Below are positions 17,298 through 52,862 of a stretch of DNA of 64,000 nt, piece by piece. Below the pieces are notes generated by a model, which made no database searches, was not told the DNA's origin, and was given only the letters and a program-made list of their open reading frames with translations. Within the stretch, counting starts at the first letter, position 1. Every line of letters begins with the position of its first letter. Source of the DNA: Thuidium tamariscinum (Eukaryota > Streptophyta > Bryopsida > Hypnales > Thuidiaceae); NCBI GenBank assembly GCA_947034885.2, contig OX344752.2, forward strand, positions 9,796,001 through 9,860,000, written 5' to 3'. Position numbers and translations under genes: made by a program.

Positions 17298-17324
17298 AAT
17301 CGTAGTGTACTCGGGGGGGGATCT

Positions 17325-30636: not shown

Positions 30637-30644
30637 CTCTGAAA
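30637..30644. repeat. 8-bp target duplication (ctctgaaa), left side of the giant hAT element
   Basis: Identical to 52855-52862. The 8-bp length is diagnostic of the hAT superfamily. Confidence 0.93.
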
Positions 30645-31027
30645 CAGGGTTGTGCGGACTCTACGTCTTTTGGGAAATTACGCCCAAAATCCGGACGTCC
30701 GGACGCAGCGGGCCGCAGCGGACGTGCGGATGGCCAAATTACCGTAGCGGACGGTGTTTTTCCCAGCGGACGGGCTATCGGACGTTAAATACGGGGAAGC
30801 GGGACGGTCGGGGGGCCATTGAATTTGCACGGACGGCGGGCAGACGGGGTATATTGTGGCGGACGGCAGGAATTTTGGCGGATGGGAGGACTGACAGGCG
30901 GACGCGATGGCGGACGGGAGGACGGCGTGGCGGACGGGACGGCGGAATGGGCGGACGGGCGGGCCTTTGGCGGACGGGATGGCGAACGGGGCGAGGGAAT
31001 GGGCGGATGGCGGACGGCTTTAGACGG
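30645..31027. repeat. Left subterminal CGGAC-rich island
   Basis: A very GC-rich 380 bases in an AT-rich region, made of many irregularly spaced CGGAC/GTCCG motifs, mostly GGCGGACGG. It starts with the terminal repeat itself. Likely transposase-binding subterminal repeats. Open frames here are repeat translations, not genes. Confidence 0.85.
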
Positions 31028-31145
31028 ACCCCTTTTTATTTTTCAACCCTCGACCTCGGGTCTTAGGGGGGTTCATAGTGTTCTTTAACATTCACATATT
31101 TATTGGGATTCAGGTTCGTGTACCTACAACGTCCTAAGGGAATAT

Positions 31146-32102
31146 TTAACCCCTAAATGTACTTGACTATGTTTTGCCAAAAACACTTCAAAACTGCCAC
31201 TTCTAGTACAACAGCAAAATCTTTTTTTTAAAACATTTTAAGACAAATGTAACCGTAGGATCTTATAGTAAACTTGTTTGAGAATATGTGGAAAAAATTT
31301 CAGAAATTTCCACCGTATAGATTGCAAGATAATAGTGTTTGAATTGTCAAAAATGCTTTTTTTGTCCCTGCGAAAATCCGGGCAGCTGCACTTCAGTAGT
31401 TCACTTTTGTATGAAAAAAAGTCCAAAATGGTTGTTACTCTTTTGATTCATTCTTTTAGTCAAGTAAGCTACATGCCTAAAAAATTTCAAATCATTTGGA
31501 GTTCTACAACATGTAGAAAACAATTAGTAAGTAGAAAGAGGTAGAAAATGAATCAAAATATTAAAATAATAATAATTAATTTTTGAAATTGAAAATTTCC
31601 AATCCCAATGGTTGTAATGTTGTAATAGACAATCTTCACCTAATGTGTTTATTCTTTTTCAAAAATATTAAAAATTGAGTAAAATAATGGACTTCAAAGT
31701 TTATTTTGGAGTAGAGATTCCATAACTTCCCACAAACTACCTTCAAACTAAAACTCCCATAACTTTCATTTCACAAATCAAAATGGAATAATTAAAAGCT
31801 TTCTAAGTAGATAAAAATCTAAAGAATGAATTTCAAATTTCAAATTTCAAATTTTTGAAAAAGTGATTTTTGAAGAAGTTTTCAGCTGCCCGGGTTGCCC
31901 GCCGAGCAAAAAAAATCACATATCATGCAATAACTTTTTATTTATGTTGTCAAAAGTTATGAAAATTGTTGGGCCTTAAAGCTACTCCTCGAACACACGT
32001 TGTATGAGAATTTCAAAGAAAAAAAATAAAAACTCCATTCTTAGTGAGCTGCCCAAAATTGCTATGTTGCCAAAAAACGCAGTTTGGGCGTTTAGGGGTT
32101 AA
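31146..32102 (+). mobile_element. TTAA element inside the giant hAT (C)
   Basis: TTAA (31146-31149) then CCCCTAAATG; right end GTTTAGGGG then TTAA (32099-32102). 949-bp interior, same order of segments as 54444-55357. Confidence 0.8.
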
Positions 32103-32239
32103 ACATTTCAATGTTTCTTTAGGTTCCCATTCATGAACCTACAACCCCTTAACCACACATTTAAACATTTCAATATTGAAATTGAATTAGGATTTGTGAA
32201 CCTACAACCCCTTAGGTTTTAGGCAAATATTTATACATT

Positions 32240-33186
32240 TTAACCCCTAAAGGACCAACATGCGTTTTTTGGCCGTATAGAAATTTTGGGCAAGTACTTG
32301 TGATTGGAAATTTGAATATTTTGGGCTGAAATTTTAATAGAAGGTAGGGCGAGGAATATTTTCATGTGTATCAAATTTCATGACATTTGGAAATATGACT
32401 CAAAAGTTATGGCCTAATATGTTGCTTTTTTTGGTAAGTGGGCAGTTCGGGTCTTCGGGACTTCGGGCAGATCAGAAAAAATCACTTTTTTAAAAAATGA
32501 AAATTTTAAACTGGTTTTCTACATGTATATATAAGTGGAAAGCTTTGAATCATTCCATTTCAATCAAAGAGTCAAAAGTTATGAGTTTTTTTTGTTTGCG
32601 GGCAGTAATGGATTCTCCACTATCAAAGAAACTTTGAAGTTGTTTATTTCACTCAATTTTCAATATTTTTGTAAAAAAATAAAACCCTAGGATGTAGATT
32701 GATTATTACAACATTACAACCATTGGGATTGTCATTTTCTAATTCTATAATTAAATTCTTAACAATTTAGTATTATGAATCATTCTATACTTCTTTTTAC
32801 TTACTATTTTTTTCCTATATGTTGTACAATTCCAAATGACATGAAATTTTTTGAGCATATCTCCATCTTGTTTAGGAAACTGAATTCAAAGAGGCACCAC
32901 CATTTTCAACATTTTTTCCTTGAGAAGTGAGCTTGTGAAGTATAGCTGCCCAATTCTTTGCAGGACTGAAAAAATGGTTTAAGGGAATTTGAATGCTTAT
33001 ATCTTTTGATCCACATGGTGGAATTTTCTGAAATTTTTACCACATGTTTTGTAGACACTATACTACAAGATCCTATGGTTACATGTATCAAAAAATGTTT
33101 TTATCAAGGAAATTGGTAGTTGTACTAGAAATGGTAGTTTTCGAGCGTTTTTGGGGAATACATAGTCATGGAACTTTAGGGGTTTA
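32240..33186 (-). mobile_element. TTAA element, opposite orientation (D)
   Basis: TTAA (32240-32243) then CCCCTAAAGGACC; right end AACTTTAGGGG then TTTA (33183-33186, one base off TTAA). The body is the reverse complement of the family, so C and D form an inverted pair about 140 bp apart downstream of the transposase gene. Confidence 0.75.
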
Positions 33187-33404
33187 GGTTTTCTTCGATT
33201 CCCATTCGTGAAACTACAATCCCTTAAGCGCACATTTAAACATTCATATTGCATTTGATGTCCAATACTCCGATTTAGCAAAGATGTTGTACCATTCATA
33301 AAAGACAAAAACAAACCTTGTTTATTAAAGTCTTCCTCAACAACAAATGGTAATCACCTACTCTTGGTATATATGAGCATCTAAAGCCCTAAGCTTACAT
33401 CCCT

Positions 33405-33902
33405 TCAATTAGAAGGACAATAATCATCATCTCCTTTCACCTCTGCCCCACTACTCTCGCATCCTCGTCTGTATCCTACGTCTTCATCGCTCGATGTGTT
33501 CTCCATACCATCTGATGAAGATCCTGCACCTTCTACTTGTTTACTTCTCTTTGCTTTCCTTCGCTTGATTGGCTTCTTGTATTCCTCTTTTACTTTCAAT
33601 ATGGCTTTGCTCATTTCTTCCCTAGAATTTAGACACGCGACCGGTTTCATTTTCCTCTTCGCAACAGGTAGGCATGTATAAAGGGGGGTTCTACCTGCAT
33701 TCAATTTCTTCACTGGTGAAACCGCGAAAGGCTGTATAGGTCTTTTTTTATTACCTTCATTGCCTACTTTGACCTCTAATTTCACTGCCTGGGGACATCC
33801 ATGAACGATTATGTTTGTGGCCCTCGAAGATTGCGGTGGAGAGGTTGCTGATTTCAGATTGCATCGTGGCGGTGCGGTGTGCAAAGCTAAATTACGTTTC
33901 AT
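33405..33902 (-). CDS. Basic/acidic tail ORF following the hAT transposase
   Basis: 165 residues in the same frame as the transposase and beginning with the codon right after its TAG stop. It has a basic KKPIKRRKAKRSK stretch (possible nuclear localisation signal) and an acidic Ser/Asp-rich end. Most simply the C-terminus of a once longer transposase. Confidence 0.5.
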   Translation of the reverse strand: MKRNLALHTAPPRCNLKSATSPPQSSRATNIIVHGCPQAVKLEVKVGNEGNKKRPIQPFAVSPVKKLNAGRTPLYTCLPVAKRKMKPVACLNSREEMSKAILKVKEEYKKPIKRRKAKRSKQVEGAGSSSDGMENTSSDEDVGYRRGCESSGAEVKGDDDYCPSN

Positions 33903-36665
33903 CTATGCCAATGTCACATCTCCATCATCATCGGTGGATGATAATACAGTGGCAGTAAATTCGATGCAAGGCTGCTTTGCCTTGCCAACATTAACAAGCC
34001 GATGTCCAAGCCCTAAACTCCTTGAACCGTCCGGATTTTGGCTACTAGTTCCAAATATGGCACCCGGTGCACCGCTCCGAGGTGGTTTTGGGGAATCTTG
34101 CATGAGCTCTTCTCTACGTTTGAGTGTATTGCCAAAGCTTGGACTCTCGGCCTCTTCTACACGTTCAATACCATTTTCCTTTACTGCAATTGTATTGATC
34201 GGGACCTCGTCATTGTCCGTACAACCCCTTTCTCCATCATTTTCTTCATCATTATCCTTTTCTTGAACCCCTCCTGTGGATGGAGATTGACAAATACGAA
34301 TGCCTTCATTCGTGCCACCATCCCCACCATCGGGAAGTGTTGTCCCATCCACCTCCGCTATCTCTACAAAAGCGTCCTCCTTCTGCGATAGAATAGATTC
34401 GCTATTCAAAAACCCGGATCCATCCACGAATCTTGCTATACGAGGTTCATCTTCACCATACCCATCATTCTCCTCATCGGAATGAAAGTCATAGATGCTT
34501 GTATTATTACCTCTCCACCCACCATTCATTGGACTAGGACTACGGTACGTTTCGTCATACAAATTGTCCATGTCATTGTCCTCGTCACCTTCATCCCGTT
34601 GGTCAAGTGGATGAAGTCCATCATCAATGTCTTCCGCATCGCTTCCTGCATCGGAGGACTCGTAGTCCACATTGTCTCTGTACCATTTCTTCTCATCCTT
34701 GTTCTTCGATGCGCCCACAACTTTTGAATTGGTGTACACATACACCAAGTCTGCTGCCCGGGTTGTTGCCAATTTGTTCCGAGATTTGTTGTGAACATAA
34801 GAGTAGTTACTCCAATTTCGTTCGCATGCAGATGATGACACCGGTTGGGCTAAAATCCTCTTGGCAATGGGAGCAATTAGCTTCCCACATGCACCTTCAA
34901 AATCCCACCAAGCATGGGCCGACAACATTTGTTCTTGTGGCTCCAACATGGTATCGAATGGAGGTTCCCTATAGCGGAAGGCTACAAATTCCTTCACCAC
35001 CTTCGCGTACTCTTCAATAGAACATATTTTTGTTAGAACGTTCTTGCATCTCTCTGTTGCATCTTGATCGTCGGCTAGTTCTTTGTCGTGGAGAAGATAC
35101 GGATTCAAAAGAGCGCCTGCATAATGGAGGTCTGTCTCCCCCATCTTTCGTCGTTTTACGAAGGACTCCTCCAGTGGTATTGCTCGGTCAAGGTCCAAAC
35201 AAAAAGGTGCTCTTCGTAGACCAAACACATGTTTTTCTAAATTCCGCATAATATGCAATACCTTCCCCATGCACGGCGTCTTTGCATCCAAATCACGTAG
35301 ACCAAATACAACTGGGGCAGTTAGTTCCCGCACATTGGTCAACCGGTCCCAAAAATGCTCATCCACAACTGTATTGTACACGTTCCTTGACTGCGATCGT
35401 GATTTGCCTTTGTCTCTATCATCCAATGTGTTCACGTATGCCACCCATTGTGGATCCACCACACTCTGCTTCAACGCATCCTTCACTTCCAACAAGCGGT
35501 CAATCATGATGAAATAAGAAGCAAACCTTGTTTCCAACGGCTTCAACAAACTGAACCTCCTCTCGTATTTCCGAAATATGGCAAGTGGCATGTGCCTCTT
35601 CCTGAAGAATTTGACAACGACCTCGGCAGCCTTCACGTAATCTTTGATCCATGGCTGCTTCGCCCAATCCTTAAGCAACAAGTTCAAGGCATGCACCACA
35701 CATCCTTGAAAATATATGTGTGGATATTTATGGGACACCAAATTCCATGCTGCGGGATTTGTATTGGTATTATCCGCAGTCACTTGCACTACATTCTTGG
35801 GGCCCACTTGCTCTATGAATTCTTCCAAGATAGAAGCCACATACGGTGCTGTCTTCTTCTGTCCACTCGTATCCACCGATCCAAGGAATTGTTCACCTGC
35901 TGAAGATATGAGCATTGCATTTATTAATGGACGGTTCGTCACCGAGCTCCATCCATCAAAAGACAGTGTTGCTCCGAACTTCCTCACACTGTCTTCAGTC
36001 CTCAGAAGCAACTTCGTTTGAATATCTGACTTCGTTTGCTCAAGCAATTTATGTCGTAGATCATTATATGATGGAGGAGTGTAGGACTTTTTAAACTCAG
36101 CCGTCAACTTCACCGCTTCCCGAAAGGCTGGATTCCGAGCTACTGAAAATGGTATATTCGCCAAATAAAAAAAATTAGCCCACGTTGCATGTAATTTGCG
36201 TTTGTTGACTTCATCAAATCCATCCACTAGCCTACTTTGTATTGCAGGCCTACTGCTTGATGCCCTCGAAGTATGCCGATTACCACCTGATTCTGTATTT
36301 GGAGTTATTTGCGAACCCACAGCGACCACTTCTTCCGGTGCGGTGCATGAATCTTCTTGCGTAGAACACGGCGTGCCCCTATCATTCAAAAGATTGCTTG
36401 TGGACATTGGCATGTCGTTGCCATCCGTTCCGTCCGCAACAAGCCTTTTGGGAAACAACCCTTGGCAATTAACAAATAAGGATTTTGTTCTGGATGTCAA
36501 CTGCGAGCACAAGCCGATGCCCCTATCACGTTGTCCCGTAGGGCCTTCATATCCCAAGTGGCTCAACATACGGCTAGTTTTTCAGGCGAACACACACTTG
36601 CAAGCCTTGCATTGTATTTTGTTTGTTTCCGGGATCGTGTACCAAGTGGTGAAGTCTTTGCTCAT
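33903..36665 (-). pseudogene. hAT transposase (BED finger, DUF659, hAT C-terminal dimerisation)
   Basis: The minus-strand frame starts at ATG 36665: MSKDFTTWYTIPE, then KIQCKACKCVFA, one in-frame TGA, KTSRMLSHLGYEG..C, which together make a BED zinc finger. After it come the RNase-H-like parts: LSFDGWSSVTNRPL (first Asp), VVQVTADNTNTNPAAW (second Asp), FQGCVVHALNLLLKDW (the C..H region), and the C-terminal hAT motif AHAWWDFEGACGKL..A.RILAQPVSSSACERNWSNYSYVHNKSRNKL. About 290 residues of acidic low-complexity tail follow. A TAG at 33903-33905 is directly followed by an ATG in the same frame (33405-33902, basic tail of 165 residues), so the ancestral protein may have been longer. The TGA in the finger makes loss of function likely unless translation starts at ATG 36569. 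Confidence 0.88.
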
Positions 36666-36893
36666 ATTGAATTCTTTTTCCCTTCAATTGTAATTGGTAA
36701 CGTTAGCACTGTGTTGTAAAAGTCCACAATCAAATAAGCACTGAGTGCAAAAAGCCTTCAAAATGAAAGCCCCCCCTTCCACCAAACTATGCATTACCAA
36801 GCAAGGGACACAAATAAATTTGCAACGCCTAGCCCTTGGAAATCTTAGTGTTCAGTTCATCAGGAGTGCTTACAAATGACTTCTCTTAGTCTA

Positions 36894-37030
36894 CTTATAG
36901 TAAACTGAGCGCAGCTGACCATTGGGGCGGACAGTCAAATACCCGTTGCAATAGTCGTTGAATCGAAGCGGACGCCCAGTTCAGTTGGGGCGGACGGCGA
37001 CTTCGGTCCAGGCGGACTGGCCGTGCGTAA
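36894..37030 (-). promoter_or_regulatory. Promoter island of the hAT transposase gene
   Basis: A TATAAG box (36899-36894 on the minus strand) stands 229 bases before ATG 36665. Just upstream of it, to about 37030, lie several GCGGAC motifs (GGGGCGGACAG, AAGCGGACGCC, GGGGCGGACGG, AGGCGGACTGG). Confidence 0.65.
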
Positions 37031-38015
37031 AACATATACAGTAAGGTCTACTTCATTTACGAATTCTTGCTGTCACATGGAAAAAAAATCCCCTGCTGCT
37101 ACCATCTTTGACGCCCTCCCTAGGGCTCAAAAATTGTTATTTTTACATTTAATTTTCTGCACAAGATTGTCTCTATGTTCATAACACATGCGTCAAATTT
37201 CAAGGCCAAAAGATTTGCCCGGAAAAAGATTTTTCAAAATCTACGTATATGTGTGGTTGTGTCTAAAACTCCAATGCTACCAACTTTGACACCCTCCCAA
37301 AGAAGCAGAGATTGAGAAATTAAAATTTGGCCATGAAATTCTTGGCATGAGATCATCTCAGTGTTGATAATATGTATGCCAAATTTCAGGTTCTAAGGAT
37401 TTGCTCATACAAAGCAACTTCAAATCTACCGACGGAAGTAGTTCTTAGAAATTTTTTGACAACTATACATGTTTACTGAAAATAATATTTTATTGAAAAC
37501 ACCTCTAGTGTTTACCCATAAATGTCCAAGGCCTATTTTGAGCTTCGACGAATTTGTTCAAATTGAACAAACAACAAACATTTTTATAAGTTGTATATTT
37601 CTTTTTTTGCATGGTAACCGTGCCAATTGAAACTAGGCATATTAGAGATCATATACAAAAACAAAACAAATCAAAATCAATTAAGAATTCAAAGATTATA
37701 ATATTCAATCATAATTTCTTACATCCAATACCATGCCTCTAATAGCATACATTCCACATCAAAAAGTATTGTGCATAGTGAATATGTACATTGACTAATT
37801 GATACATACATAAATAGATAAATAAATGAATAGATAGATAAATAATTCCATATATATGTTCATATTAAAAACCGATAATAAGTCAAAGCATATTCCGTGT
37901 ACGTTTACCTAGTATTGCTCTATCCTTCTAAAATCCACATCACCATCTAACCATCCATAGTCCATACAATACGATGGTTCAATCAAAAACTCATACAAGA
38001 CGTATAGGTCCATGT
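37031..38015. other. AT-rich spacer between the hAT transposase promoter and the RING gene
   Basis: No gene or clear repeat. It separates the upstream side of one minus-strand gene from the 3' end of the next. Confidence 0.5.
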
Positions 38016-41000
38016 CTACTTTGTTTTACTACTACTACCCTCTCCTGAACCACGAGACGATTCATCTTTAGTGCGTCGAGCTGCACTTCTTAGACTTTCT
38101 CGACAAGCTTGGGCCTCAGGGCTTTCAGCCGTTTCAGGGCCAGCTAGTCGTGCGGATTTGTTAGTCCGCTCAACTACTTTGAATGCTTTTGCCGTGTCCA
38201 CTGTATAATCATCATCATCTTCCAACTTCCGTTTCTTCTCTCTTTTGGGAGTCAAATCCACAGACTTCAACTTCAAGGCTGACAAAGTAGACTGCAATCG
38301 AAGTAAGACCTTGTCTACCACTTTGTTGGCCACTTCAAATGAGAATTCATTCAATGATTTTTCGGTTGTACATCCTTCGAATAGAAGTGTCCTCCACTAC
38401 TTTATGATTTCCCCAACCCGCCGATCAAACGCCTCCACCACCTCCACCATTGGTTCGCTTGTGTTCCATTCCGCATCTATGTCCACGGAAGCACGATATT
38501 CGGCAGCTTCTTCCAACTTTGACAACAACAAGGCCCGACCTATCAAACCGTGGTCGTATGCCGCATATTGTTCCTTGAATTCTTCTGAATCCTCCACGAC
38601 AACCCATTCTCCACCTTCCATTTTCTCCACGTGCTTCTCTGGAAACCGGAAGAACTTATTACGTTGCACGCTCCAATGCCCCCCCATGTTGCGACAAAAC
38701 AATTCACGACCCTCATCATCGTCAATTGAACGGGCACGTATTTCCACCTTGTTCGTTTGGGTCATCCAATTGAAAGCATCCACTGGACCACGGACGTCAT
38801 CGTACAATGCATGCTTCCGTTCTGTTGGGTTCCATTGTAGAGGTTTGCTCCAATGCTTATAATTCACAAATTTTTATGGCCCTTGGTCCAATGGAAGGGT
38901 CCACCTGTTGTATTCCTGGCCGGGGGGCATAACATCTAAGAGTCCAAACAATTCATAAAACCTAGGACTCAAAGGAGAACGACATTCGGCACAAACTGAG
39001 CTAAACATTGATGCTTTAATGATGCACCGCACGTGAAAAGTGTGGCCACAATGGCCCAAGGTTATGGCTCCTTCAGGTCCAAAACCTTATTGGCAAATTG
39101 TACAAATACCATCCAACATTTTATGACCTGCATCAAAATTATGCATAACACGCTTCTCCTTGTTGTTGATGTGTGCTGAAAGCGTTTGGTAAGGGACCCA
39201 TCCTTCCTCTACTTCCAAGGCCCAATTGATATTTCCACCCTCCGTTTTCTTTGTGTGGTTCAAGCGCTCCATCATAGCATCTGTGTTTCCCCAACATGTG
39301 ATTGAAGCACTCTCAATTGGATGGCGATCCACCTCGCTCTCGAACTTCTTCAAATGTTTCTCGACGGCATTGCATTCATCGTTACCCTTCAATGCAATCG
39401 TACGAAGCTTGTTCATTTCTCGAGCTGCTAACAAGGGTGGGTCTTGAAGTTTTTGTACCCATCCCAACCAACGAGACTCCGATCCGCTCCTAGGCAAATA
39501 TTCATCCATGGCCTGCACTCGTATCATTTGATCCAACTTGGACTGAAGAAGGGCTTTTTCGGCATTGGACTGGTCCAGTTCTTTTTGTAAGTCAAGCCAA
39601 CTTTTACGGCCAATCGGCAAAGTTCGTTGGTCTGGCTCGACATGAGCTTTGCCCTTGTCCATTGGAAGAGAGAGTTGATCGCTACCTTGAGTCCCTTGAC
39701 TTGGCTCAATACATTTCAATGATTCAGCCATCCTTTGAATCCTGTCCGCGCGTTTCTCTTCTTCAAGTTCCATGGTGAGCGCAGTCCTCAACCGTATAAT
39801 ATCTCTTCCTCTTTCTTTTAGCTCCTGCCTCAATTGAGCGTGACCTTCTTCACAATGAATCGCGGACGTGAGAATTGGTAACATTTGATCGGTGAAGTGC
39901 AGGAAAGCCGTCGCACTGCTCAATAGTGTAGGAGCTAGGGACGCTAATTCATCGGCAAACGCACCAACCCTTGGAGCCAATTCATCTATCCATGTGGCAG
40001 TTCTTGTCAATGCCAGAGCGGCATGTGGAAAGTCAGCGGGTTTATATACTTTCTTCGGTGGAGTACTGCTTTCCGGCTCGTTCTGCTGAGTCCGTTGCTC
40101 AAATGGAAACAAACGTTCTTCAACTGTCTTCCACTTCATACTAAGGTCAAGCAAGCCTTCCAAATGCAGAATCTGTGGCATTGCAACAAGATTCTTGAAG
40201 CTAGTCGAGTCTAAACTTGACAAATGTGGATACTTTTTTATAAACTCATATGTATCCACTGTCACATTCGTCTTTGCAACATTGGGTTGTTGCACATTTG
40301 TTCTTGACAGGTCCTCTTGAGTGATTGGAGTACACAATGGGCTCTCCGATGTTGGCAACTGTGGATTTGGAGCTGCATATTCCAAACTATCTAAAACACC
40401 GTTGTCTACATAATGTCCAATTGTGACATTGGCCCCTGCAACCTCTTCGTCCGTGGGGTCCGTCTTCGGAGAAGACAAGCCATCATTTTTGTTGACGAGC
40501 TCTTCCCGGTTGGGAGATTTGTTTTGGTCATTCACATGAACCGCAGAAACGTCCATAACTTTCGATGTTGTCTCCCTCGAATCCAACTGCGGTTTCGCAC
40601 ATGCGCTTGCTGAGGCCATCGTTGTAGGCGTTGCTGGATTTTGTAAGCTTGGTTGTACCCTCTGCGCCGTCGTTGGCCAGGAATCAGGAATATCCTTTTG
40701 ATTTTGCTACAGTAGTAGAGGATTCTTCTTTGTTGTTTGGAACGTGCTCCAATCCACCTTGCGTTTCAATCTCAGTTCTGCATACACCATGGACGCCAAG
40801 CTGTAGTTGATGTACCCTTTAGACATTGGTTTAGGGCCAAACATGGCCCCCCACACCTCTGTCGCTCGATGGACAAAGTGCGGGTCAATGCAACCGTGTG
40901 GTTTACAGTTGAAATCCGCAGTCTGGCGTGCATGTGCATCCGAGGCCACAACTTGTTGATGTGGTACATTTTAACGTACTGCTTACATAGTTTGGAGGTC

Positions 41001-41164
41001 CAATAATCTGCGGTCTCATTTTCCCAACCGCTCTCTGCTATGATGTTCAGATCATCCAAAATTTCATAGTGTAGTCCATGTGTAGTCCCCTTCGCTTTAT
41101 TTCGCTTTTTCTGGTCACCTCCTGAATTCATCCCATCAGTACCTGCACCGCTGTCTGTAGCCAT
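38016..41164 (-). pseudogene. Giant-hAT cargo gene B: shared N-terminal domain, coiled coil, RING finger
   Basis: About 1,045 codons from ATG 41164. Except for one frame change near 40950 a single frame runs to 38016, interrupted by four stops (about 40709, 39089, 38876, 38397), each of which could derive from a Gln codon. Order of parts: a conserved N-terminal domain (WTSKLCKQYVKMYHINKLW ... HFVHRATEVW ... NYSLASMVYAEL...KVDWSTF) shared with gene C; a long helical middle with coiled coils (LRQELKERGRDIIRLRTAL, LDLQKELDQSNAEKALLQSKL); a RING-type finger (CTIC..GHCGHTFHVRCI..CAEC); then about 280 mostly charged residues with a basic PKREKKRKLE stretch. A RING domain suggests ubiquitin-ligase activity; its role in the transposon is unknown. 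The whole protein matches nothing I know. The frame being so long despite the stops says it was selected until recently. Confidence 0.7.
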
Positions 41165-41390
41165 GATAGAGAATCCGAATTTACAAGCCCTTGCAAATCA
41201 AAATTCTGTGAACCGGAGGGTATGAAACGTGTCTTTGTAATACAATCGGTCAAAGCTTCGACGTGAAAAAGTAGTGACCCCTTCTCTCCACCAAGTAGGA
41301 GCAACTAGCACCACGCACTCATACGTGGCAATAAGCAGCACATCCGACTTGGGTCACTTCGTGAGGAGAGAAGAAGTGAGGGAAAATGAA

Positions 41391-41635
41391 GGGGCCGTCC
41401 GACCATATACCCGTCCGCCGCCAGACCTAGACAGGTCCGGCACCGGACTGGCGGACGGCCAGTGCGGACCGTCGCCGGACGGGGCGTCCGCCTCGAGTCG
41501 TCCGACGACAGGCCCGTCTGGCGGACCTGTCGTCCGACCGCCCCGCTAGCCATCCGCCCGTTCGCTCTGCCGACCGCCCTTCGGCCCTACCCGTCCGCCT
41601 TGACGACCGACAAAGGCGTCCGCCCTGCCGACCGC
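41391..41635 (-). promoter_or_regulatory. Promoter island of cargo gene B
   Basis: GC-rich stretch crowded with CGTCCG/CGGACG; a TATA-like GTATATGG (41410-41403 on the minus strand) is on the gene side, about 240 bases from ATG 41164. Confidence 0.65.
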
Positions 41636-41716
41636 TCAGATTTCAAGTCCAAACTGAACATTGGATTCCACAAGTCCAAAGTGAACATTGGGTTCTCCAG
41701 AAGTCATATTTAAAGC

Positions 41717-42719
41717 TTGAACCCTTAAAGGACCATCAATATACTTTCACCAAAAGCGCTCCAATTGCCTCCAAAAAACCAAAACTGCCATTTCTAGTAC
41801 AAGTACCAAAATCTTTGGAAAAAAACTTTTTTTGACATATCTGATCGTAGGATATTGTATTGTATAGTATCAAAATCATGTGGTAAAAATTTCAAACATT
41901 TCCACCGAGTGGATTACAAGATATAAGCATTCAAATTAACTGAAATCATTTTTTTTACACTGCGAAAGCCGAAAAGCAAGGCAGCTGCACTTCCCAAGCT
42001 CACATTTCTATGAAAAAATGACCTAAATGGTCGTGCTTCTTTGGATTTGTTTTCCTACAGAAGTTGGGCACATGCTTAAAAATTTTCAAATCATTTGGAA
42101 TAGTACAACGTATACGAAAAAATTAGTAAATATGTAGTAGTAGAGAATGATAAAACGCACTACATTATTTACAGTTGAAATATGGAATTGAAAATTCCCA
42201 ATCCCAAATTTCCAATGGTTGCAAATTTGAAATGTTGTAATAATGTATCTACATCCTACGATTTTATTTTTGTCCAAAAATATTGGAAGTTGGGTAAGAT
42301 AAAGGATTTCAAAGTTTATTTTAGAGTAGGAAATCCAAAATTACCCGGAAACAGAAAATCCACATCACTTTTGACTCATTCATCAAAATGGAATGATTCA
42401 AAACTTCACGCGTATCCAGAACTCTAGAAAAAGAATTTGTGGAATTCTTGTTTATGAAATAAGTGATTTTCTCTGATTTGCATGAAATGCCCTGTTACAA
42501 AAAAAAAGTAACATATTAGGCTATAACCTTTGACCGGTATTTTCAAATGCCATGAAAATTTGGTGCATATGACAGATCTTCCTCACCCCCACATTGGTCA
42601 ATTGACTCAATTCCATTCAAATTTTAGCCTCAAATCTGGATATCCCCGCTCGTAAATAGTAGGTACCTACCCAAAATTTCTATACATCCCAAAAAAAAAG
42701 TGCGGGCTTTTAGGGGTAA
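41717..42719 (+). mobile_element. TTAA element, ends eroded (E)
   Basis: Left end TTGA-ACCCTTAAAGGACC, right end CTTTTAGGGG-TAAA. The interior matches the family order. Altered target bases suggest greater age than the copy at 54444. Confidence 0.65.
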
Positions 42720-42881
42720 AAATGGGAAGGGTTGGAAAAAGCATCCAATGTTCAATGTATTATGTATGTGTGAAATTGAGTTTCATTCTGCACATTAAAT
42801 TTTTTAAAGAAAGTAAGTCCTCAACCCTACACCCTATCCGAATAGCATCGACGTCCACTTTTGTAGAGTGTAGACAAGCCC

Positions 42882-42918
42882 AAACCCTAAACCTTAAACC
42901 CTAGAACCTAAACCCTAG
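42882..42918. repeat. Interstitial telomere-like tract (CCCTAAA)n
   Basis: About five degenerate CCCTAAA/CCTTAAA units just right of the TTAA element. This is the plant (Arabidopsis-type) telomere unit; here probably a short interstitial relic. Confidence 0.7.
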
Positions 42919-43411: not shown

Positions 43412-44075
43412 TTAACCCTTAAAGGACCAAGGCCATTTTTTTGTTACAAACCACTCAGAACTGTCATTTCTGCTGCGTTCACTATAAGAAAACCAAGAAA
43501 ATACTTTTCTTTGGATCTAACCTTAGGATCTTGTACTTTACTTATCTAGGAAAAAGTGGCAAAAATATCAGATGACTTTGATCGCTATTCGTGGAATTTT
43601 TTGGAACTATGGAGTACGGAGTATGGACCTTGAATTAAAATTTTTGAAGGAATTTGAAGAACTTGGATGGGAGTTGAAAGTCTAAGGCAAAAATTTCAAG
43701 AAAAATAGGCTTGATTTTCATTATTCAAAAAATTCTTAAGTACAAGTAAGTCCAAGATTGAAAGAAAAACTAAATCATTAATAGCTCTAACATGGGATTG
43801 AAACACAATAATCTCAATGGTGAGATTGTTCTAGTTTTTTTCAACCCCCCATCCCTTATTTTCAATATTTTGAGTTCATTGGATCATAGATGTTGTTATT
43901 GGGAATCAATTGTGAAAAAAATTACATTCCATGGAAGTTAATCAATTTTTTTATCTTTTGAAGAAGTTTTTAAAAACTAAAAACAAGGATCGAATTTGAA
44001 ATTTCAGCCCGCAGGTACTACCACAAATCCCATGTTTCCCCACAAGGGCCAAAAGTGAATGATCCTTTAGGATTC
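43412..44075 (+). mobile_element. TTAA element, right end degenerate (F)
   Basis: TTAA (43412-43415) followed by CCCTTAAAGGACC. The interior resembles element B (7563-8484). The right end is only recognisable as GATCCTTTAGGA near 44060-44071. Confidence 0.55.
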
Positions 44076-44537
44076 CAACTTTCAATTGGAATTTCATTAA
44101 ATTTGAATATTCCTTTGTCAATTGTCATAGAAGGTGTGTTACTATGTTTGGAACAATTTGAATCACCTGAATTTCAACAAATGATATTGACAATTTCCAA
44201 TATTTAAGACTAGTATCATTATAATTTCCTAGAATTACAAATTCTTCCAAAAGAAATTAATTTCTGTTGAAATTGAAAACGTACTACGGTAATATAAATC
44301 ATTCCTCTCTATCAGGTCCTAAGGTGAATTTTGGATACATATAATTTGAACATTGAAACCTAAAGTCATAGTTATTCCATGAAGTGTTCAAATTCCCCAA
44401 AATGCATGCAAATTGCAAAGAGAATCTAGCATTTATTTCTGATTTTCGAGAAGATTTAACATCAACTTGGCTGGTTTCAGAACCTAAACCAATGTAACAT
44501 GCTTACTCAATGAATTTCAAGAATTCAAGTATCGATG

Positions 44538-44896
44538 TAAGGTAGAAGCACCCATTATTTTCAGTGTATCCATAGTTTGACATTAGAGTTTCTTACAAAG
44601 TGTCCCCACTAGTACCTTGAAACTTTAGTTGTGCTTGGTGGGTTCTGATTATTTTAGATTTTGGTGTGAGAATCTAGGCAGATTTACTAGGAGTGCAGAT
44701 TTAGGTGCTCTACTAAGTCCTACTTTGAAAATTCACAGAAATTAGATGCCTCGTCCAAAAATTCTAATTTTTTTTTTGAAATTCATGATTTTCAGTTGCC
44801 AATACTACAAAAATATTCTTTATAGGAAAAGGTGCCTCCAACTATGCTGAAACTGCTAACTAACTAACTTCAGCTGTAATAGGTGCTTCTACCTTA
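44538..44896. mobile_element. MITE with TAAGGTAGAAGCACC inverted ends
   Basis: TAAGGTAGAAGCACCCATTA at the left and its near complement (TAATAGGTGCTTCTACCTTA) at the right; 359 bp, TA at both outer edges (Tc1/mariner-like target). Single-ended look-alikes occur near 30161 and 50485. Confidence 0.75.
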
Positions 44897-44917
44897 GGTC
44901 TTTGAGGGTTTCAAACC

Positions 44918-45200
44918 CCCCGCCCGTCCGTCCACTCTTCCGTCGGTGCCCCCGTCCGCCCCTCTTTGCCCCCGTCCGCCCGTCGGTCCGTCCGTCCCTG
45001 CGTCCGCCCCCGACGGGCGCCGTCCGCGTCGTCTGTCCCTCGGTGAGTCCGCCCGATGTCCGTGCGATCCAGCGGACGCCGATTTCTGTCCGCTGGATTC
45101 TGCCGTCCGCCTCTCGGCCGTCGGATGAGCATCTGGCCGTCCGCCTCGGTGGGGGGTGGACGGCTCAGTATAAGAAGCGGGGCGGACGGCTCATTTGGCC
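44918..45200 (+). promoter_or_regulatory. Promoter island of cargo gene C
   Basis: GTCCG-rich GC island; TATAAG at 45169-45174 near its gene-side edge, about 300 bases before ATG 45471. Frames reading through it are Pro/Arg/Ser-rich artefacts. Confidence 0.7.
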
Positions 45201-45470
45201 ACAACCGTTTCCCTTCGGAGTGGACGATCTAGTGCCTGATTTTAATCTGTGGCTCTGCGCGCCCCTTCCGACATTGTGTGCAAACGGTTGTGCTTCATTA
45301 ATCATCACTAAAATGCTTCACGAACTTTAGTTGAAGTAATGATCAAGCTCTGAGGGACTACAACTTCATCTAAACTGCATCGCATTGTAACTTTGAAGCA
45401 TTTTGATTTCTTATTGCTGGAATTAGTGTGAACGAAGTCATCAGTTGCTCTCATTTTAGTCAACGCCACC

Positions 45471-46544
45471 ATGCCTCGTGATGAAAACAAGAAAAACAAG
45501 GGGAAATCCCAAAGCATAAATTGGGATGATTGGAATGATCCAATGTGTGTTCGTGAACCCGAATGGGAGAGTGAACCAAAGAAAGTTTGGACCGCCACTA
45601 CATGCAAGAAGTACGTGAAAATGACGTACATTGCCAAATTGTGGGCATCGGACCGTGCAGCGCAACAAGTTCGCCGTTGGGAAGGGCAAACATCCACGTG
45701 TCTCAGTAGGCACTTTGTTCACTGATACGATGAAGTGACGCGTAATGCTGGTATACGTGACTCCAAACCAAATGTCATGAATTATACGAACATGGCCATG
45801 GTCTGGGTAGAGATTGTACTTCACAAAGATGTTGATTGGCGCACAATATATGGAAAAGATGTGGCGACTCTCAATCGCAACGAAGCAGTCATTTATACAA
45901 GCTGGACTAATGCAAGCGATTGCATGCCCGAATGGTCCAATCGAGGCCAATTTGGATTTCCTGCAACAGTGATGCCGGATGCAGAGGAGCCCGTCCCAGA
46001 TGATGATGATGATGTTGAAGAGGCTACTGCACCCGTGGCCGGTGGAGAGAGGCATGAACGTAGAGAAGCTCGAGAGGACATTCAATATGAGCATGAAATG
46101 CGTGAGGCAATGCGGAGAAGCACAGAAGATCGTGGTCCACAATATGGTTACGATGGGTACTATGGACGTGAATGTGGTACACATGACCCACGAGGTGGGC
46201 AAAGTCGTTCTCAAATCGTAGGAGGAAGCCGCGGAACCGCGCACAATGCTCCTTCTACCCAAGAAGGCTCCCAATACCATTCGAGGTCTAGTGGAGGTGG
46301 TTCATATGGAAATTATGGGCATCATGGAGGGTCTTACCATGGCCGTTCAAATGAAGGAGGCTCCTACTATGGAGATTCAGTTCCTCCTCCAACCTTTGGA
46401 GGGCCTCATTACGGGAACTATGGACAAGGAGGAGCGGAAAGCGGAGTAAGAGACGTGTACGGTGGAGGACCATATATGGGGGTGTATGGATCTAGTTCTG
46501 TAGGCCATAGTCAGAGAGATGATACCGACTCAGATTCTGAGTGA
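45471..46544 (+). pseudogene. Giant-hAT cargo gene C: shared domain plus Gly/Tyr/Ser-rich tail
   Basis: A single frame of 357 codons from ATG 45471 to TGA 46544 with one in-frame TGA at 45723-45725. The first 130 residues match gene B in order: WTATTCKKYVKMTYIAKLW, HFVH-stop-YDEV, NYTNMAMVWVEI...DVDWRTI. Gene B has Arg where gene C has the TGA, so CGA-to-TGA is the simplest history. After an acidic run (DDDDDVEE) and a charged helical part, the last 120 residues are a Gly/Tyr/Ser/His low-complexity tail (SGGGSYGNYGHHGGSYHGRS and similar), the kind found in RNA-binding and condensate-forming proteins. No catalytic motif. The clean frame around the one stop suggests recent loss. Confidence 0.7.
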
Positions 46545-47235
46545 AGTACAACAAAAAAACTACACTCTTGTAGTGGCTAGTCCGCACTACGGTGTAATGA
46601 TTGTAATCCACTGCCATGTATCGTAGGTGGTGGCAAGCATGGTATTGTAATGTTGGTGAGGGGTACTCACGAACCTATAAGTATTTATGAAAATACAAAT
46701 TTTTGAAATGCGTGAGTACAATATTGGATCTATGGATAGGACCTTTGACCTGTAGTATTAAATTTAACCAATGTGTAGCTATTGTTATTATTTAAATATG
46801 AATATTGCATCGGAATGTTTTCCCCTCTTTTCTAGTACTCCGGTTACAATGCCTCCTCGAACATATATTTGAAACATAGTTTTAACAACTTAGAATTGTG
46901 AAGTAGAATTTAATAAGCTAAAAACTTGATTGGGGTTATGCTTGTTATGCCTTTGAACCTAATATTATTTTGATGACCCATTTTGAAAATTGTCAAAATT
47001 GTCAAGGCAATACTTGGTCATTTGGGGGTTAAAAGAAATAGAAGACTTACATGTTAGTTTATTTAAGTTTAGGAGAATAAAATAAGAGAGGCCCTAATTC
47101 CTCATCCATAGTCCAAAGAGGTTGAATGAAACTTTCACGTGTTTTTTTTCCCCTATGTGATCTCTAGCATGTCTATTTAGAATTTTTATGAGAATAAAAT
47201 AAGAGAGGCCCTAATTCCTCATCCGTAGTCAAAAT
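46545..47235. other. Spacer with one TTAA-element right end
   Basis: A right end CATTTGGGGG-TTAA is at 47020-47032 and the sequence before it resembles the right part of 8602-9251. The left end was not found. No gene. Confidence 0.45.
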
Positions 47236-48180
47236 TCAATGACATTCCAACCTCTCCATATTTTTCTTGGCCCGTCTTCACGTGAAATTTGAAATGAATA
47301 GGCCATTTACAAAGTAGACCCAAAAATGGCTACGTGGCGTATTTTTTGAAATAAAATCAAAACTAGACAATTTCAAATGTGGAATGGAAATTAGTCATAG
47401 AACATAAATGTCCTATGACATTTGAACTTCTCCATATTTTTGTCGTCCCCTTTTCACGTGAAATTTTAAGTGAATAGGGCACTTAGCAAAAAACTCCAAA
47501 TATCGCAATGTAGCCTATTTTTTGGAATCTCACAAAAAATAGGCAATTTCAATTTCCAAATAGAAATTTGTCATAGAACACAAATGTTCTATGACATTCC
47601 AACCTCTCCATATTTTTCTTGGCCCGTCTTCACATGAAATTTGAAATGAATAGGCCATTTACAAAGTAGACCCAAAAATGGCTACGTGGAGTATTTTTTG
47701 AAATAAAATCAAAACTAGACAATTTCAAATGTGGAATGGAAATTAGTCATAGAACATAAATGTCCTATGACATTCCAACCTCTCCATATTTTTTTGGGCC
47801 CGTCTTCACGTGAAATTTGAAATGAATAGGCCATTTACAAAGTAGACCCAAAAATGGCTACGTGGCGTATTTTTTGAAATAAAATCAAAACTAGAGAATT
47901 TCAAATGTGGAATGGAAATTAGTCATAGAAAATAAATGTCCTATGACATTCGAACTTCTCCATATTTTTGTCGGCCCCTTTTCACGTGAAATTTCAAATG
48001 AATAGGGCACTTAGCAAAAAACTCCAAATATCGCAAGGGAGCCTATTTTTTGGAATCTCACAAAAAATAGGCAAATTTGTCATAGAACACAAATGTTCTA
48101 AGAAATTTCAACCTCTCCATATTTTTTTGGCCCTTCTTCACGTGAAATTTCAAATGAAGGCCTTCTACAAAGTAGACCAT
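47236..48180. repeat. Tandem repeat, 176-bp unit, about 5.4 copies
   Basis: Units start at about 47236, 47411, 47588, 47764, 47940 and 48099 with (C/A)TATGACATTCCAACCTCTCC-like sequence. Two versions alternate as A-B-A-A-B-A. The array ends directly at the CGGAC island of gene D. Confidence 0.85.
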
Positions 48181-48186
48181 TGGATT

Positions 48187-48490
48187 AGGCGGACGGCACC
48201 CGCCCAATCATGGTCGTCCGTCGGATCGATCGGACGGCGGACTTCCCATCCGCCCGATCGAGCGGACGCGTTTCCGACGTGCATTGCGTCAGCGGACAGA
48301 ATGCTGCCGTCCGACGAGGCGGACGCATATCCGTCCGCCCGTCCGCGGCCGTCCGATCGTGTGGACGCCCGATCACGCGGACGCATGCGCGCCGTCCGAT
48401 CGATCGGACGGCGGACAGTGCCTCGTCGGGTCGGCCGCACAGGTTTAGGGCGTCCGCCAAGGTATAAGAGGGGCGGTTTAGGCCGTCCGC
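48187..48490 (+). promoter_or_regulatory. Promoter island of cargo gene D (kinase)
   Basis: Dense GGACG/CGTCC motifs, including GATCGATCGGACGGCGGAC-type palindromic clusters. TATAAG at 48463-48468, about 180 bases before ATG 48647. Confidence 0.7.
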
Positions 48491-48646
48491 CCTCACTCTT
48501 GTTTTCTCCCTTGCATTTTGCAAGCGTGGAGTGGAAAGCTTGGTGGCTTCTTAAGTCTCCATTGGTTCCCCTCCTAGGGAAAGCAAGGGTGACATTATTG
48601 GGGCCCCCTTGTTGCTTTTTTTCGAAGTTTTGACGTGATTTTTATC

Positions 48647-50150
48647 ATGATGGGACGAACAAAGAAGGCGGGTAAAAGGAAACTGGAGGAGGTGGCAGGT
48701 CCATCTAAAGAGGAGGCAAAAGCAAACAAGCCCTCTGAAGCATTGAATAATATGATGATTAAAGTGATCGTGGACTTCTACGAATCGGAGAGCACGATGT
48801 CCTTGCAGATGAAGTATGTTCGCTACAATGAGGACTGTCCTAAAAAATTCAAGGACGACATGTGGCAACGGTTGATGGATGCGGTTTTTGTTCCACAATG
48901 GCACAGTGAAATGGATAAGAGTGGCTTTGAGCAGTTATTGAAAAATAAGGTGCATGACGGGGTTGTGGAATGCAAAGGCCATCTTAACGAAGTATGGGAA
49001 GTTTCACCGTGAACATGATGCTGCATTTCAGCAAGTCATTCTAAGGGCTGAATTGTTTGTCGGCCGATGTGCTCTATTCGCGTCTACCAGGAATAGACGA
49101 GGATCTATGGGTTGGTGGAAAACCAATGATGGAATGGTTGAATTGACGGAAGGCAGGAAGCATCTAATAGCACTTCCAGACACGGCGACCGTGATTTATT
49201 GTAATGATGTCGTGACCAAAGGCGGGTACGCAACAATTTGGAGGGTGAAAATTTGGGGATGCCGTAAAATACCTGAGTATTGGGAGTTTGCAGCAAAGCT
49301 ATCTAATGTACAGCAGATGCTACCTCATCTTGCAAAGGTGAAATACCAAAACGAGTCCATGGCGGTGCGGATTGGCCATCCCGGAGTGATACGGTTTTAT
49401 GCAGTTCATGCAAGGAGGAATGAAGGATATCCATATTGGTGGAATGGCGGGACCTTGCGGAAGATGATGCATTTGGATAGAACTTATCCAGACAACATAC
49501 GTATGCACTTGCAATATAGCTCGCCAACGGATGCGGATGTCATTGTCGCGGGTCATCTTGCACGATTTCGGAAGAAACGTACGGAGCTAGCATGGGCGTT
49601 GTTGCATATCATGCATGCGGTGCACGATGCAGAATATTTGCACAATGATATTTCACTGGACAACATTATGTTGCACTTTCCCGCGGACGAGTCACGCGTA
49701 TACATTGGAGTGTGTGATTGGGGCATGACTTCGTACGTTACAGAACCACCGAAGTCATTGTACGTGTTCACATCCAAACAAGAGATGGATGCTGCTTTGC
49801 AAAACCGTTGGTGGGTGACCTCGAAGATTGCATATTTGCACGAAAAAGACAAAAATGTGCAAGTAATTCCAAGTTTATCCATTGCAACGGAGGAGTACGC
49901 GGTGTGCAAAATAGCCATGACAATTAACAGGAATTGCATGTCAGAGGAGTACCACAAGTTGAACATGGAAACGGCAAGCATGAGCAAATTTGATCACCAA
50001 GCGTTGGCAATGTCATTTCGTGCGTACTTGGAGCGCCCTTGCAAAGACGGCCTGGAGAATGCGGGCGGTTTGGCACGCATCATCAATCGTTGGACCAGTA
50101 CTTTCAACTGGCCTATTCCCAATGAACACTTTCGGCGTTCGTATGAATAG
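48647..50150 (+). pseudogene. Giant-hAT cargo gene D: divergent protein kinase
   Basis: Start ATGATGGGACGA at 48647, a basic N-terminus (GRTKKAGKRKLEE) and a helical region; one frame change between about 48930 and 49000 leads to the main frame, open to TAG 50150 (about 500 codons in all). Kinase features in order: a glycine loop KGGYATIWRVKI, AAKLSN (ATP-binding Lys), HPGVIRFYAVH, NGGTLRKMM, the catalytic loop YLHNDISLDNIML, and VCDWGMTSY for the metal-binding DFG (here DWG). Asp and Asn of the catalytic loop are kept, but the Lys of HRDxKxxN is Ser, as in FunK1-like or transposon-associated kinases. It may be active or a pseudokinase; substrate unknown. Apart from the frame change the gene looks well preserved. 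Confidence 0.75.
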
Positions 50151-52570
50151 ATCGGCATAGTATAGTAGCATATGTAAGTATAGAATGATATGTAGTCTAT
50201 GTTATAGAGAGAATATACACGTGCGGCATATATAATACGTAGTATATATACGGAGCACCAATGTATGGCAACCCAAATGAAATCTATTATATTTTTTGAA
50301 TTACTGAAAGCATTTGAAAATTTCAGCTATTAATGTTTATGATCTTTGATACTTGATAGGCAAACGTATTCAGGGGGGGGGGAAATGAGATCAATAGTAT
50401 TTATTGTTGGTAGATGTTGTTGTGCACATAGATACTTGATAAGGTTGTGTAACAATTTGCATGATGTATAAGGTCTAAGTAGTAAGTAAGGTAGAAGTAC
50501 CTATTAGCGCCTTGACTTGCAATCTGAGTATATTAGGGTGAACTTCAAGAGAGTTATATATTTTTCAGAGGTGTACAAACATTTCACAAATGAAATTCAA
50601 ATGACAAAATTCTTTTTGCGGAGCTCTGAGAAATTTATGGCAATTTTAAATAAAATCATGACATGGACAAATCATGATTCAAAATTCGAAAATGCCATTA
50701 ACCCCAAAAGGATTCGTGCCTCAAATGCACTTCAAAATACTAAAAACTTGTCCCGAAAGGAATGTCAAAAATCAAAATCTTTATGATTAAATTTTTTTTA
50801 AGAAAACCAACTTGTCGATCTTTTTGTTAACTTGTTCAAGTAATAGGGTACATTGTTCCAAAATTTTATTGTGAATTTCCCCACCAATTAATATTTGCAA
50901 CTAAAAAGATGACTAAAATTTCTCTCAAAATCATTTGAATTTCCTCATAGTGATATAAAATTTATAGTTTCAAGTAATAAAAATATAAGATTGATGTTTG
51001 AACAAAATAAGATATGCTTATTTTAGCTTAAGGATGATATTTGACCAAATGGAATAGAAACTATGAATTTTATCAATATAAAATTTATATTTTGGTTTCA
51101 ATTGATTTTGTGCCGATTTTTAATTGAAACAAAAATAACAAAATCAATTGAAACAAAAATTTGATTGAAACAATAGTTGATTATCAATTGAACCAAAAAT
51201 GGGAGCAATTGATTTTGAGAAAAATTCTAATCGTTATCATTTTTTTACAAAAATTAAAAATAAATATAAGAAAACTAGCAGAAAAAATCCGAAATACTTT
51301 CAATTTCTTCCAAAGGTACAAGTATAAATGGAGATCACTATATATAATTTTCAATTTGCCTTTAAAAAATTTTGAACCCTAAACTACAATAACAAAGACC
51401 TCAAAGTCAAATTTGGCTATTAAAGAAAATTAAATTTTTGATTTTATACATTATCAAGAGAAATTCTATTGTAAAATTCTACTTTCTACATATTCTATTT
51501 TTCTACAAATTGCTTGATGAAAACTACATATTATTGTAATAATTTAAAAGTAAAAAGTTAAGAAAATTATATCAATTATACTATATATTGGAATAGTTTG
51601 AAATTTTCACCATTAATGAATGTTAAATGGAAAACTGAATATTGCAATTGAAATTAAGGATTGATCTTAAAACGAATAAATATGAATGAAAAAGACAATG
51701 TATTGTGTTTGACGGATTTCAACACATAGAACTTGCAATTGCAATAAATTTTTCAATTCTTGGAATTTTTCAAAATTTTAAGTTCAAATAAAAAGAAAAG
51801 TTTTCAAGCTTCATTTTCTTATTTTAAGTCAAATACCAAAATGGCTATATTGAAAGTTAGAATCAAAGTTGAACAAGGCACATCCACTTTTTTTATGCCT
51901 AAATTTTAGAGGTTAATGTGGAATCAATGTAACCACATAAAGATGTTGTTTTCAAGATTATTATTATTTTATTATTTTCATCATTATTTTAAAATTATTT
52001 TAATACTACTTAATATTCAATGTTTTTACTAGTAAAATTTAAATTTCTTGAATTTAGAAACAAAATTATTAATTTTTTTAGTATCAGTTTAATAGGGTCA
52101 TTTGCCATCATTGATGACTACTGACTATTAACGCCTAAAGGAATTATAAAATCAAAATCTTCATCATTAATTTTTTTTTGGGAAAACCAACTTGTTGATC
52201 TTCTTGTTAACTTGTTCAAGTAATCAAGTACATTGTTCCAAAAATTAATTATGAATTTCCCCACCAATTGCAAGTTCAATGCGCCTAAAACCGCCTACTT
52301 TCACTACTTGTACATGTTGCTTTTTGTAGCCTTCAGCAATGTACAAAGGGTGTACATTGCAGGGGTGGGCGTTTTCAAAGCCCTATGCCCTTTCAACTTC
52401 AAAAATTCATAACTAATTCCACAAAACTTCAAAAATTATAAAACAATTTCGGTTAGATGTCAATTCCACTTGTCTTTCAAAGGCAATTTACTGGAAAATA
52501 TTTTAAGACGTTTCCCCTCCCCAAAATTCAATTTCAGCTCTTAAATTGACTAGTTACCTTATACGGTGAA
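50151..52570. other. AT-rich region of the giant hAT with a 125-bp direct repeat
   Basis: No gene. About 50767-50893 and 52143-52270 are roughly 85% alike (AAAACCAACTTGT.GATC, GTTAACTTGTTCAAGTAAT). Each follows a TTAAC-CC-AAAGGA-like string (50699, 52132), so both may be left ends of TTAA elements. Confidence 0.5.
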
Positions 52571-52599
52571 AAGTTTTAATTTTTTTTTCAGACATTCTC

Positions 52600-52854
52600 A
52601 TCAGGGTAGATGCGGACGCCATCACGGACGCGTGGCGGACGCGCTCGGTCGGAGCGGATGGGATCGCTTTCGTGGCGGACGCTGGCGGTCGGGGCGGACA
52701 GGCGGTCGGACGGGACCTCCGACGCCGGCTGCCGAGGCGGCCGTCCGCCTCTGTATTTTATCGGGCGCACTAAATTTCGAAATTGAAATGTCACAGGACG
52801 TCCGCGGGGTGCCGGACGCTGGACGCTGGACGTCCGGACGTCCGCACAGCCCTG
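52600..52854. repeat. Right subterminal CGGAC-rich island
   Basis: Dense GCGGAC/GGACG motifs ending in the terminal repeat at 52854, matching the left end in composition. CAGGGTAGATGCGGACG at about 52603 imitates the terminal sequence and may be an internal duplicate of the end. Confidence 0.82.
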
Positions 52855-52862
52855 CTCTGAAA
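52855..52862. repeat. 8-bp target duplication (ctctgaaa), right side
   Basis: Exact copy of 30637-30644. Confidence 0.93.

Follow-up and report, generated by a model that had tools for sequence, protein, structure and literature searches.

hAT transposons are textbook single-protein cut-and-paste elements, usually a few kilobases long, and a locus in Thuidium tamariscinum (Bryopsida) raises the question of whether a member of this superfamily can keep and move a larger set of genes. The locus lies within a stretch of 64,000 nucleotides (hereafter the window; C4:9796001-9860000), in which positions 30645-52854 hold one worn copy of a 22-kb hAT-type element with a transposase gene and genes for a RING-H2 protein, a Gly/Tyr-rich protein, and a protein kinase. 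An earlier sequence-only reading had proposed a mobile unit of this size in which the three additional genes travel as cargo. The multi-gene mobile unit is real: it is defined by its ends, 8-bp duplications, an empty site, and many copies, and two diverged families share its four genes, on which purifying selection has acted. Dozens of copies of the element and of the related family are spread through the genome. It is likely that the window copy is a defective representative of a four-gene hAT transposon that spread by cut-and-paste, and that the extra genes are core accessory genes and not passengers.

The element is bounded by short terminal inverted repeats of 15 bp that differ from each other by one C/T difference. 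The left, T-type repeat CAGGGTTGTGCGGAC lies on the transposase side (30645-30659, plus strand) and the right, C-type repeat CAGGGCTGTGCGGAC on the kinase side (52840-52854, minus strand); these are the sole zero-mismatch matches to CAGGGYTGTGCGGAC in the whole window, and seven matches are found when up to three mismatches are allowed, compared to 1.19 expected. The target-site duplication CTCTGAAA is located directly outside both ends, at 30637-30644 and 52855-52862. This 8-mer is not rare by itself (3 found in the window, 3.84 expected), so it is the placement beside the ends that counts. Pattern matching in the window thereby confirmed the near-identical ends and identical outer 8-mers described in the sequence-only reading. 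In the 363-Mb genome (19 contigs), the 15-mer end occurs 182 times, with a C at position 6 in 67 cases and a T in 115, while the reversed 15-mer pattern used as a control has 0 occurrences.

Six additional long copies (E2-E7) were picked because they have two exact ends spaced by about 22 kb, and the sample of seven that they form with the window copy (E1) was thus chosen for completeness. These copies span 21,535-23,063 bp and are colinear from end to end, with pairwise identities of 95.7-97.7%, and all four genes are detected by tblastn in each of the seven. The 8-bp duplications are exact and all different in five (E1, E2, E3, E5, E7), and that of E4 matches at 7 of 8 positions. The proposal of a single 22-kb mobile unit is borne out by these colinear copies between the same ends, as the fetched copies carry the same gene set with different 8-bp duplications.

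Empty sites were probed by joining 110 bp from each flank of eight insertions with one copy of the duplication and searching the genome. Matches cross the junction for four of the eight (E1, E2, the insertion S1, and, over a shorter stretch, E3). The window insertion has an empty site at one place (C2:19621071-19621281, 90% identical across the junction); this paralogous site, the sole one read, contains one CTCTGAAA, and the flanks align on both sides. The S1 junction is likewise matched at one place (C3:26518252, 93%). The E2 junction is matched at 31 places (best C7:22169690 at 95%, others 86-88%), indicating that E2 inserted in a repeat, and the E3 junction at 15 of 16 places, where matches extend 43-53 bases past the junction in a repeat with an inverted arm. 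No junction-crossing match for E4, E5, E7, or the insertion S2 is present among the 49 matches listed (the best 40 of 2,001 candidates scored), which is no evidence of absence.

The association of the four genes with the ends extends beyond the seven long copies. Genome-wide gene counts are lower bounds drawn from the best-scoring candidates, and host paralogs below the family level are invisible in them. At least 104 kinase matches are found, comprising 74 family-1 places (80-94% identity; window 100%), 29 places of a second family (58-59%), and one second piece of a listed gene; the transposase has at least 56 matches in 51 places, and the RING gene at least 49 matches. The ends listed include 100 of the 115 T-type ends and miss those with any base change. 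An exact inward-facing end is located 1.8-5 kb downstream of 37 of the 74 family-1 kinases; 1,000 random placements gave 0.07 on average and never more than 2 (the sizes of contigs 9 and 10 being approximate). When hallmarks are taken as an exact inward-facing end or a Gly/Tyr, RING, or transposase neighbor with the order and strand expected, at least one is present at 61 of the 74 kinases (random mean 0.31, maximum 3; 500 placements) and at least two at 37. Of the 51 transposases, 30 have a same-strand RING gene at most 15 kb upstream, and for 27 of the 49 RING matches a transposase and a kinase are both placed as expected. Five have neither neighbor, and one of these five sits inside E7 itself. 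The concern that these genes might be found only here, or outside such ends, is largely answered by these counts. Both ends are among those listed for 18 of the 74 kinases, with spacings of 21.5-23.4 kb in eight, 25-26 kb in two, and 29-69 kb in eight; the widest pairs are possibly mispaired or may hold nested insertions.

The coding capacity of the element has been examined by domain, motif, and structure comparisons. The transposase gene (33405-36683, minus strand, upper boundary approximate) is a 1092-amino-acid open frame in other copies and has two in-frame stops in the window copy. The predicted presence of a hAT transposase was upheld by matches of the window protein to DUF659 (7e-35) and Dimer_Tnp_hAT (4e-8), and the open-copy transposases also match both families above the Pfam cut-offs (DUF659: 1e-34 in family 1, 3e-35 in family 2; Dimer_Tnp_hAT: 6e-8 and 8e-10). 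A BED-like finger falls below the cut-off (0.0018), and the best solved structure, Hermes, is a weak match (E 0.4). The motifs FDGW, TADN, and CERNW, candidates for the catalytic acidic residues of hAT transposases, are present in family 1, and ADN and CERNW, without FDGW, in family 2.

The RING-H2 gene (38016-41197, minus strand) corresponds to a 1058-amino-acid frame that is listed stop-free in other copies and is broken in the window. The candidate RING assignment rests on Pfam, where zf-RING_2 is just above the cut-off; the domain also matches RNF24 among solved structures (3e-4), and regular expressions for RING and BED ligands, patterns that were too narrow, gave no match. The Gly/Tyr-rich gene (45432-46544, plus strand, start approximate) is a 370-amino-acid open frame in other copies with one in-frame stop in the window copy, and the family-1 protein matched no Pfam family. 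The kinase gene (48593-50150, plus strand) is a 518-amino-acid open frame in other copies with a frame break in the window copy. The Pfam match of its product is below the curated cut-off (4e-6; 26.8 vs 31.7 bits), and VRK1 and casein kinase 1 are the best solved structures (E 0.009-0.06); GGYAT, FAAK, HND..N, and DWG, presumably functional kinase motifs, are present in both families. No recombinase match was found in Pfam for the RING, Gly/Tyr, and kinase proteins. Compared with open copies, every one of the four genes of the window copy is thus interrupted by stops in frame, by frame breaks, or by both, and stop-free frames of each are listed elsewhere in the genome. A viral source of the kinase was considered and rejected, as a scan of viral contigs with the kinase alignment (the kinase alone was scanned) gave 183 pattern matches and 0 relatives by tblastn.

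Two copies of the 58% kinase with its downstream side are 99.4% identical over 7.7 kb and diverge just past CCCTG. Upstream in one of these copies are a 1194-amino-acid RING frame and a 1118-amino-acid transposase frame, and all four frames of this copy are open. Its right flank predicts a left junction of GTGGACCT followed by CAGGG. This 13-mer has three occurrences in the genome, compared to six for the reversed pattern; the number is ordinary, and it is the position at the expected place that counts. One occurrence, at C2:13395178, is on the expected side, 2.1 kb past the transposase, and defines an element of 22,518 bp. The arrangement recurs: of 51 family-2 transposases, 47 are accompanied by a same-strand Gly/Tyr gene that lies in the expected direction at a distance of up to 40 kb, at 15.8-16.2 kb in 34 of these 47, and a listed kinase is also near 20 of the 51 (29 family-2 kinases scored). 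Conversely, the Gly/Tyr gene lies 4.2-4.9 kb downstream, on the opposite strand, of 24 of the 29 family-2 kinases (50 of 81 Gly/Tyr places tested).

The ends of family 2 are other than those of family 1, and its near end occurs 152 times in the genome. Among 30 such loci read, 11 are elements of 341-586 bp with exact 8-bp duplications (L031, L033, L034, L036, L037, L041, L042, L043, L047, L054, and L059), which were perhaps moved by the family-2 transposase; no second end with an exact duplication was found within the 1.5 kb examined at the remaining 19. Pooling both families gives 19 distinct exact 8-bp duplications (seven from long and short family-1 copies, 1 + 11 from family 2). Ac-like elements have the insertion preference nTnnnnAn, and a T is present at position 2 in 21 of 38 cases, a raw count over both strands of the 19 duplications in which an A at position 7 has the same number by construction.

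Comparison of the two families offers insight into how the genes have been maintained. Amino acid identity between families is 53% for the transposase, 61% for the Gly/Tyr protein, and 56% for the kinase. Ratios of non-synonymous to synonymous rates (dN/dS; NG86 method) between families are 0.26 for the transposase (1,050 codons), 0.28 for RING (930 codons; the family-1 sequence used is a 934-amino-acid part), 0.22 for Gly/Tyr (356 codons), and 0.18 for the kinase (499 codons), at a dS of 1.3-1.95 that is near saturation. On these comparisons the three extra genes appear to be kept about as strictly as the transposase over the long term.

A further connection between genes and ends is provided by the motif CGGAC/GTCCG. 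Of its 90 occurrences in the window element, 73 are concentrated in five islands that make up 1,904 of 22,210 bp, compared to 31 occurrences in the 41,774 bp of the window outside the element. One island is found at each end and one 5' of each of the three extra genes: 30645-31040 at the transposase-side end (17 motifs; shuffle mean 1.2, maximum 5), 41240-41700 before the RING gene (13; 1.6, 7), 44860-45300 before the Gly/Tyr-rich gene (14; 1.6, 7), 48150-48500 before the kinase gene (17; 1.4, 5), and 52600-52854 at the kinase-side end (12; 1.1, 5), the islands having been chosen after the clusters were seen and the mononucleotide shuffles preserving base content only. The 5' side of the transposase gene has a weaker cluster (4 motifs in 250 bp). 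In the family-2 copy, clusters precede all four genes, and that of the Gly/Tyr gene runs into the right end. Furthermore, the RING and Gly/Tyr proteins have in common an N-terminal domain with conserved C, C, H, and H, which is also visible as tblastn cross-hits in the other gene's frame.

The three extra genes look like a conserved core module that serves the element, not swappable host cargo, because the set is fixed in both families, the gene starts bear the repeats of the ends, and two of the proteins share an N-terminal domain. The label of cargo in the sequence-only reading is consequently not supported, nor is its likeness to the giant cargo transposons of fungi (Starships), the extra genes forming a fixed and conserved set instead of a variable one. 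In the mechanism proposed here, the hAT transposase would cut at the CAGGG ends and move the element by cut-and-paste. The CGGAC islands would be bound by element proteins, either the transposase or the RING and Gly/Tyr proteins via their shared N-terminal domain, and accessory proteins on the islands may couple expression to synapsis of the ends. Binding of the repeats both at the ends and before the genes would provide one recognition code through which transposition is tied to the module's expression. The transposase, or host factors of silencing or replication, may be the trans targets of the kinase and RING ligase; the functions of the kinase, RING, and Gly/Tyr proteins are predicted from sequence. 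The extra genes would then resemble, in concept, TnpA of En/Spm or mudrB of MuDR. We place at even chances the fuller proposal that this hAT lineage depends on a four-protein module, with the kinase and RING protein controlling the transposase or silencing and a single CGGAC code at termini and promoters.

Several results weigh against the core-module interpretation, and some of them favor the alternative that the transposase alone moves the element and that the three extra genes were captured from the host, to which they are beneficial or neutral, as in Starships. Two short elements of 7.0 and 7.8 kb, selected by end spacing, contain none of the four genes yet both have exact 8-bp duplications and so moved; the genes, the extra ones included, need not be present in cis. 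The kinase and RING domains belong to types general among eukaryotes, and 13 of the 74 family-1 kinases have no element hallmark nearby, leaving part of the concern about genes outside such ends in place. Between families, the lowest protein conservation is that of RING (44%, vs 53% for the transposase), and the order and direction of the kinase and Gly/Tyr genes differ between families, the family-2 Gly/Tyr gene being on the strand opposite to the kinase, unlike in family 1. Selection within family 1 is also weak on RING and Gly/Tyr: non-synonymous to synonymous changes relative to neutrality are mildly reduced (transposase 0.55, RING 0.77, Gly/Tyr 0.79, kinase 0.72), changes shared by copies give 1.03 for RING and 0.99 for Gly/Tyr (the latter on 8 sites), and stops occur at 0.39, 0.92, 0.74, and 0.19 of expectation for transposase, RING, Gly/Tyr, and kinase, respectively, about as often as under neutrality in the case of RING. 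None of the seven long copies has four open frames, one or more genes in each being disrupted by a stop or frame break; E6 is a full-length copy with both ends that has unlike 8-bp flanks and no duplication; and AlphaFold models were too poor for use (mean predicted local distance difference test score 49.5 for the shared domain, 33 for the kinase). The within-family selection test is weak, and the conclusion on selection rests on the between-family test. Taken together, the two tests suggest long-term retention while the family-1 copies seen now are, by their sequences, mostly decaying. Against captured cargo, the gene set does not vary between the families, conservation of the kinase and Gly/Tyr proteins equals or exceeds that of the transposase (RING falls below it), and the shared domain and the end repeats at gene starts tie the genes to the element; we consider cargo an improbable explanation.

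A role of the kinase and RING protein mainly in countering host silencing, in what would otherwise be a standard single-protein hAT element, overlaps the core-module interpretation and is a tentative option that we judge doubtful, although better placed than cargo. E3 ligases and kinases are common regulators, genes required in trans only would fit such a role, and anti-silencing genes are known in plant transposons (VANC of VANDAL21). The repeats shared by ends and promoters, however, point at least equally to self-regulation of the element. A nested composite, in which a hAT element of the usual few kilobases was enlarged by chance insertions or unrelated ends happen to share CTCTGAAA, might be read from the eight of 18 kinases whose two ends are 29-69 kb apart. 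It is contradicted by the shared interior of seven colinear copies located at different sites, by the empty site for the window insertion, and by the recurrence of the gene set in a second family, and it was rejected as having almost no probability. Chance ends or a chance duplication are likewise ruled out by the genome counts, the colinear copies, and the empty site.

Additional features of the element and its surroundings were observed. The right end of E6 is of the T type, and this copy is perhaps a recombinant between two copies. Over a 176-bp tandem repeat block upstream of the kinase (47212-48133), the alignment of element copies has gaps and several registers, and the number of repeats is therefore probably variable. 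An AT-rich non-coding segment is present as diverged (about 70%) direct and inverted copies at 31148-33184 and 41781-42724, with a like segment in the short derivatives (L027, L028), which retain a segment resembling 41.6-44.3 kb of the window. Outside the element, inverted 3.9-kb arms at 872-4787 and 23742-27656 are 99.4% identical and 19 kb apart. The left arm has frames of 387 and 280 amino acids, with no Pfam match above cut-off, and the right arm frames of 387 and 161 amino acids; no shared duplication was seen at their outer borders, and the pair may be a recent inverted duplication or a further large element bounded by repeats. Between the arms, a 531-amino-acid frame (15762-17357) has an NLI-interacting-factor-like phosphatase domain (PF03031, 2e-8). 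A Myb-type host gene at 61646-63216, 8.8 kb right of the element, has two Myb matches, one above the Pfam cut-off, and contains SHAQKYF, a motif that we assume to be a sign of a land plant or its close kin.

We know of no earlier hAT elements with conserved multi-gene machinery. Like other members of the superfamily (Ac, Hermes, Tol2, and plant DUF659-type elements), the element has DUF659 and dimerization domains, short inverted ends of the CAGGG type, and 8-bp duplications favoring T at position 2 (A at position 7 on the other strand). Unlike them, it is 22 kb instead of a few kilobases long, has three conserved additional genes, and has repeat islands before genes as well as at its ends. 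Conserved accessory proteins are found in En/Spm (TnpA/TnpD), MuDR (mudrA/mudrB), and Harbinger (a Myb-like partner), but these belong to other superfamilies and have one accessory gene and no kinase or RING gene. The subterminal repeats of En/Spm are bound by its accessory protein, and the layout here is alike in that repeats are shared by ends and gene starts, with binding being putative.

Starships are also large multi-gene DNA transposons that move as a unit, with a tyrosine-recombinase captain (PMC12506042). The element described here has instead a DUF659 hAT transposase, an 8-bp duplication, and no such captain, and its gene set does not differ between the two families seen. Pack-TYPE elements are plant DNA transposons that also hold gene sequence, described as non-autonomous and capturing coding DNA (PMC8903248); here, in contrast, a transposase is present and the extra genes are full length and conserved between families. 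The nearest published candidate for a hAT element with cargo, among the matches listed, is the fungal ToxhAT (ToxTA), which is 14 kb long and was reported as a hAT element carrying another gene. It has since been described as single-copy with a TA duplication and proposed to be likely a non-autonomous element of Tc1/mariner type (PMC12506042). No published multi-gene plant hAT element is present among the matches listed in the open-licence literature, although absence from print is not thereby shown.

The element stands where ToxhAT has been proposed for another superfamily (PMC12506042). The existence of a 22-kb hAT lineage with four genes, in two families and many copies and with four open frames in one family-2 copy, shows that the superfamily can carry and keep a multi-gene program, and the element offers a system for testing element-encoded phosphorylation and ubiquitination of transposition.

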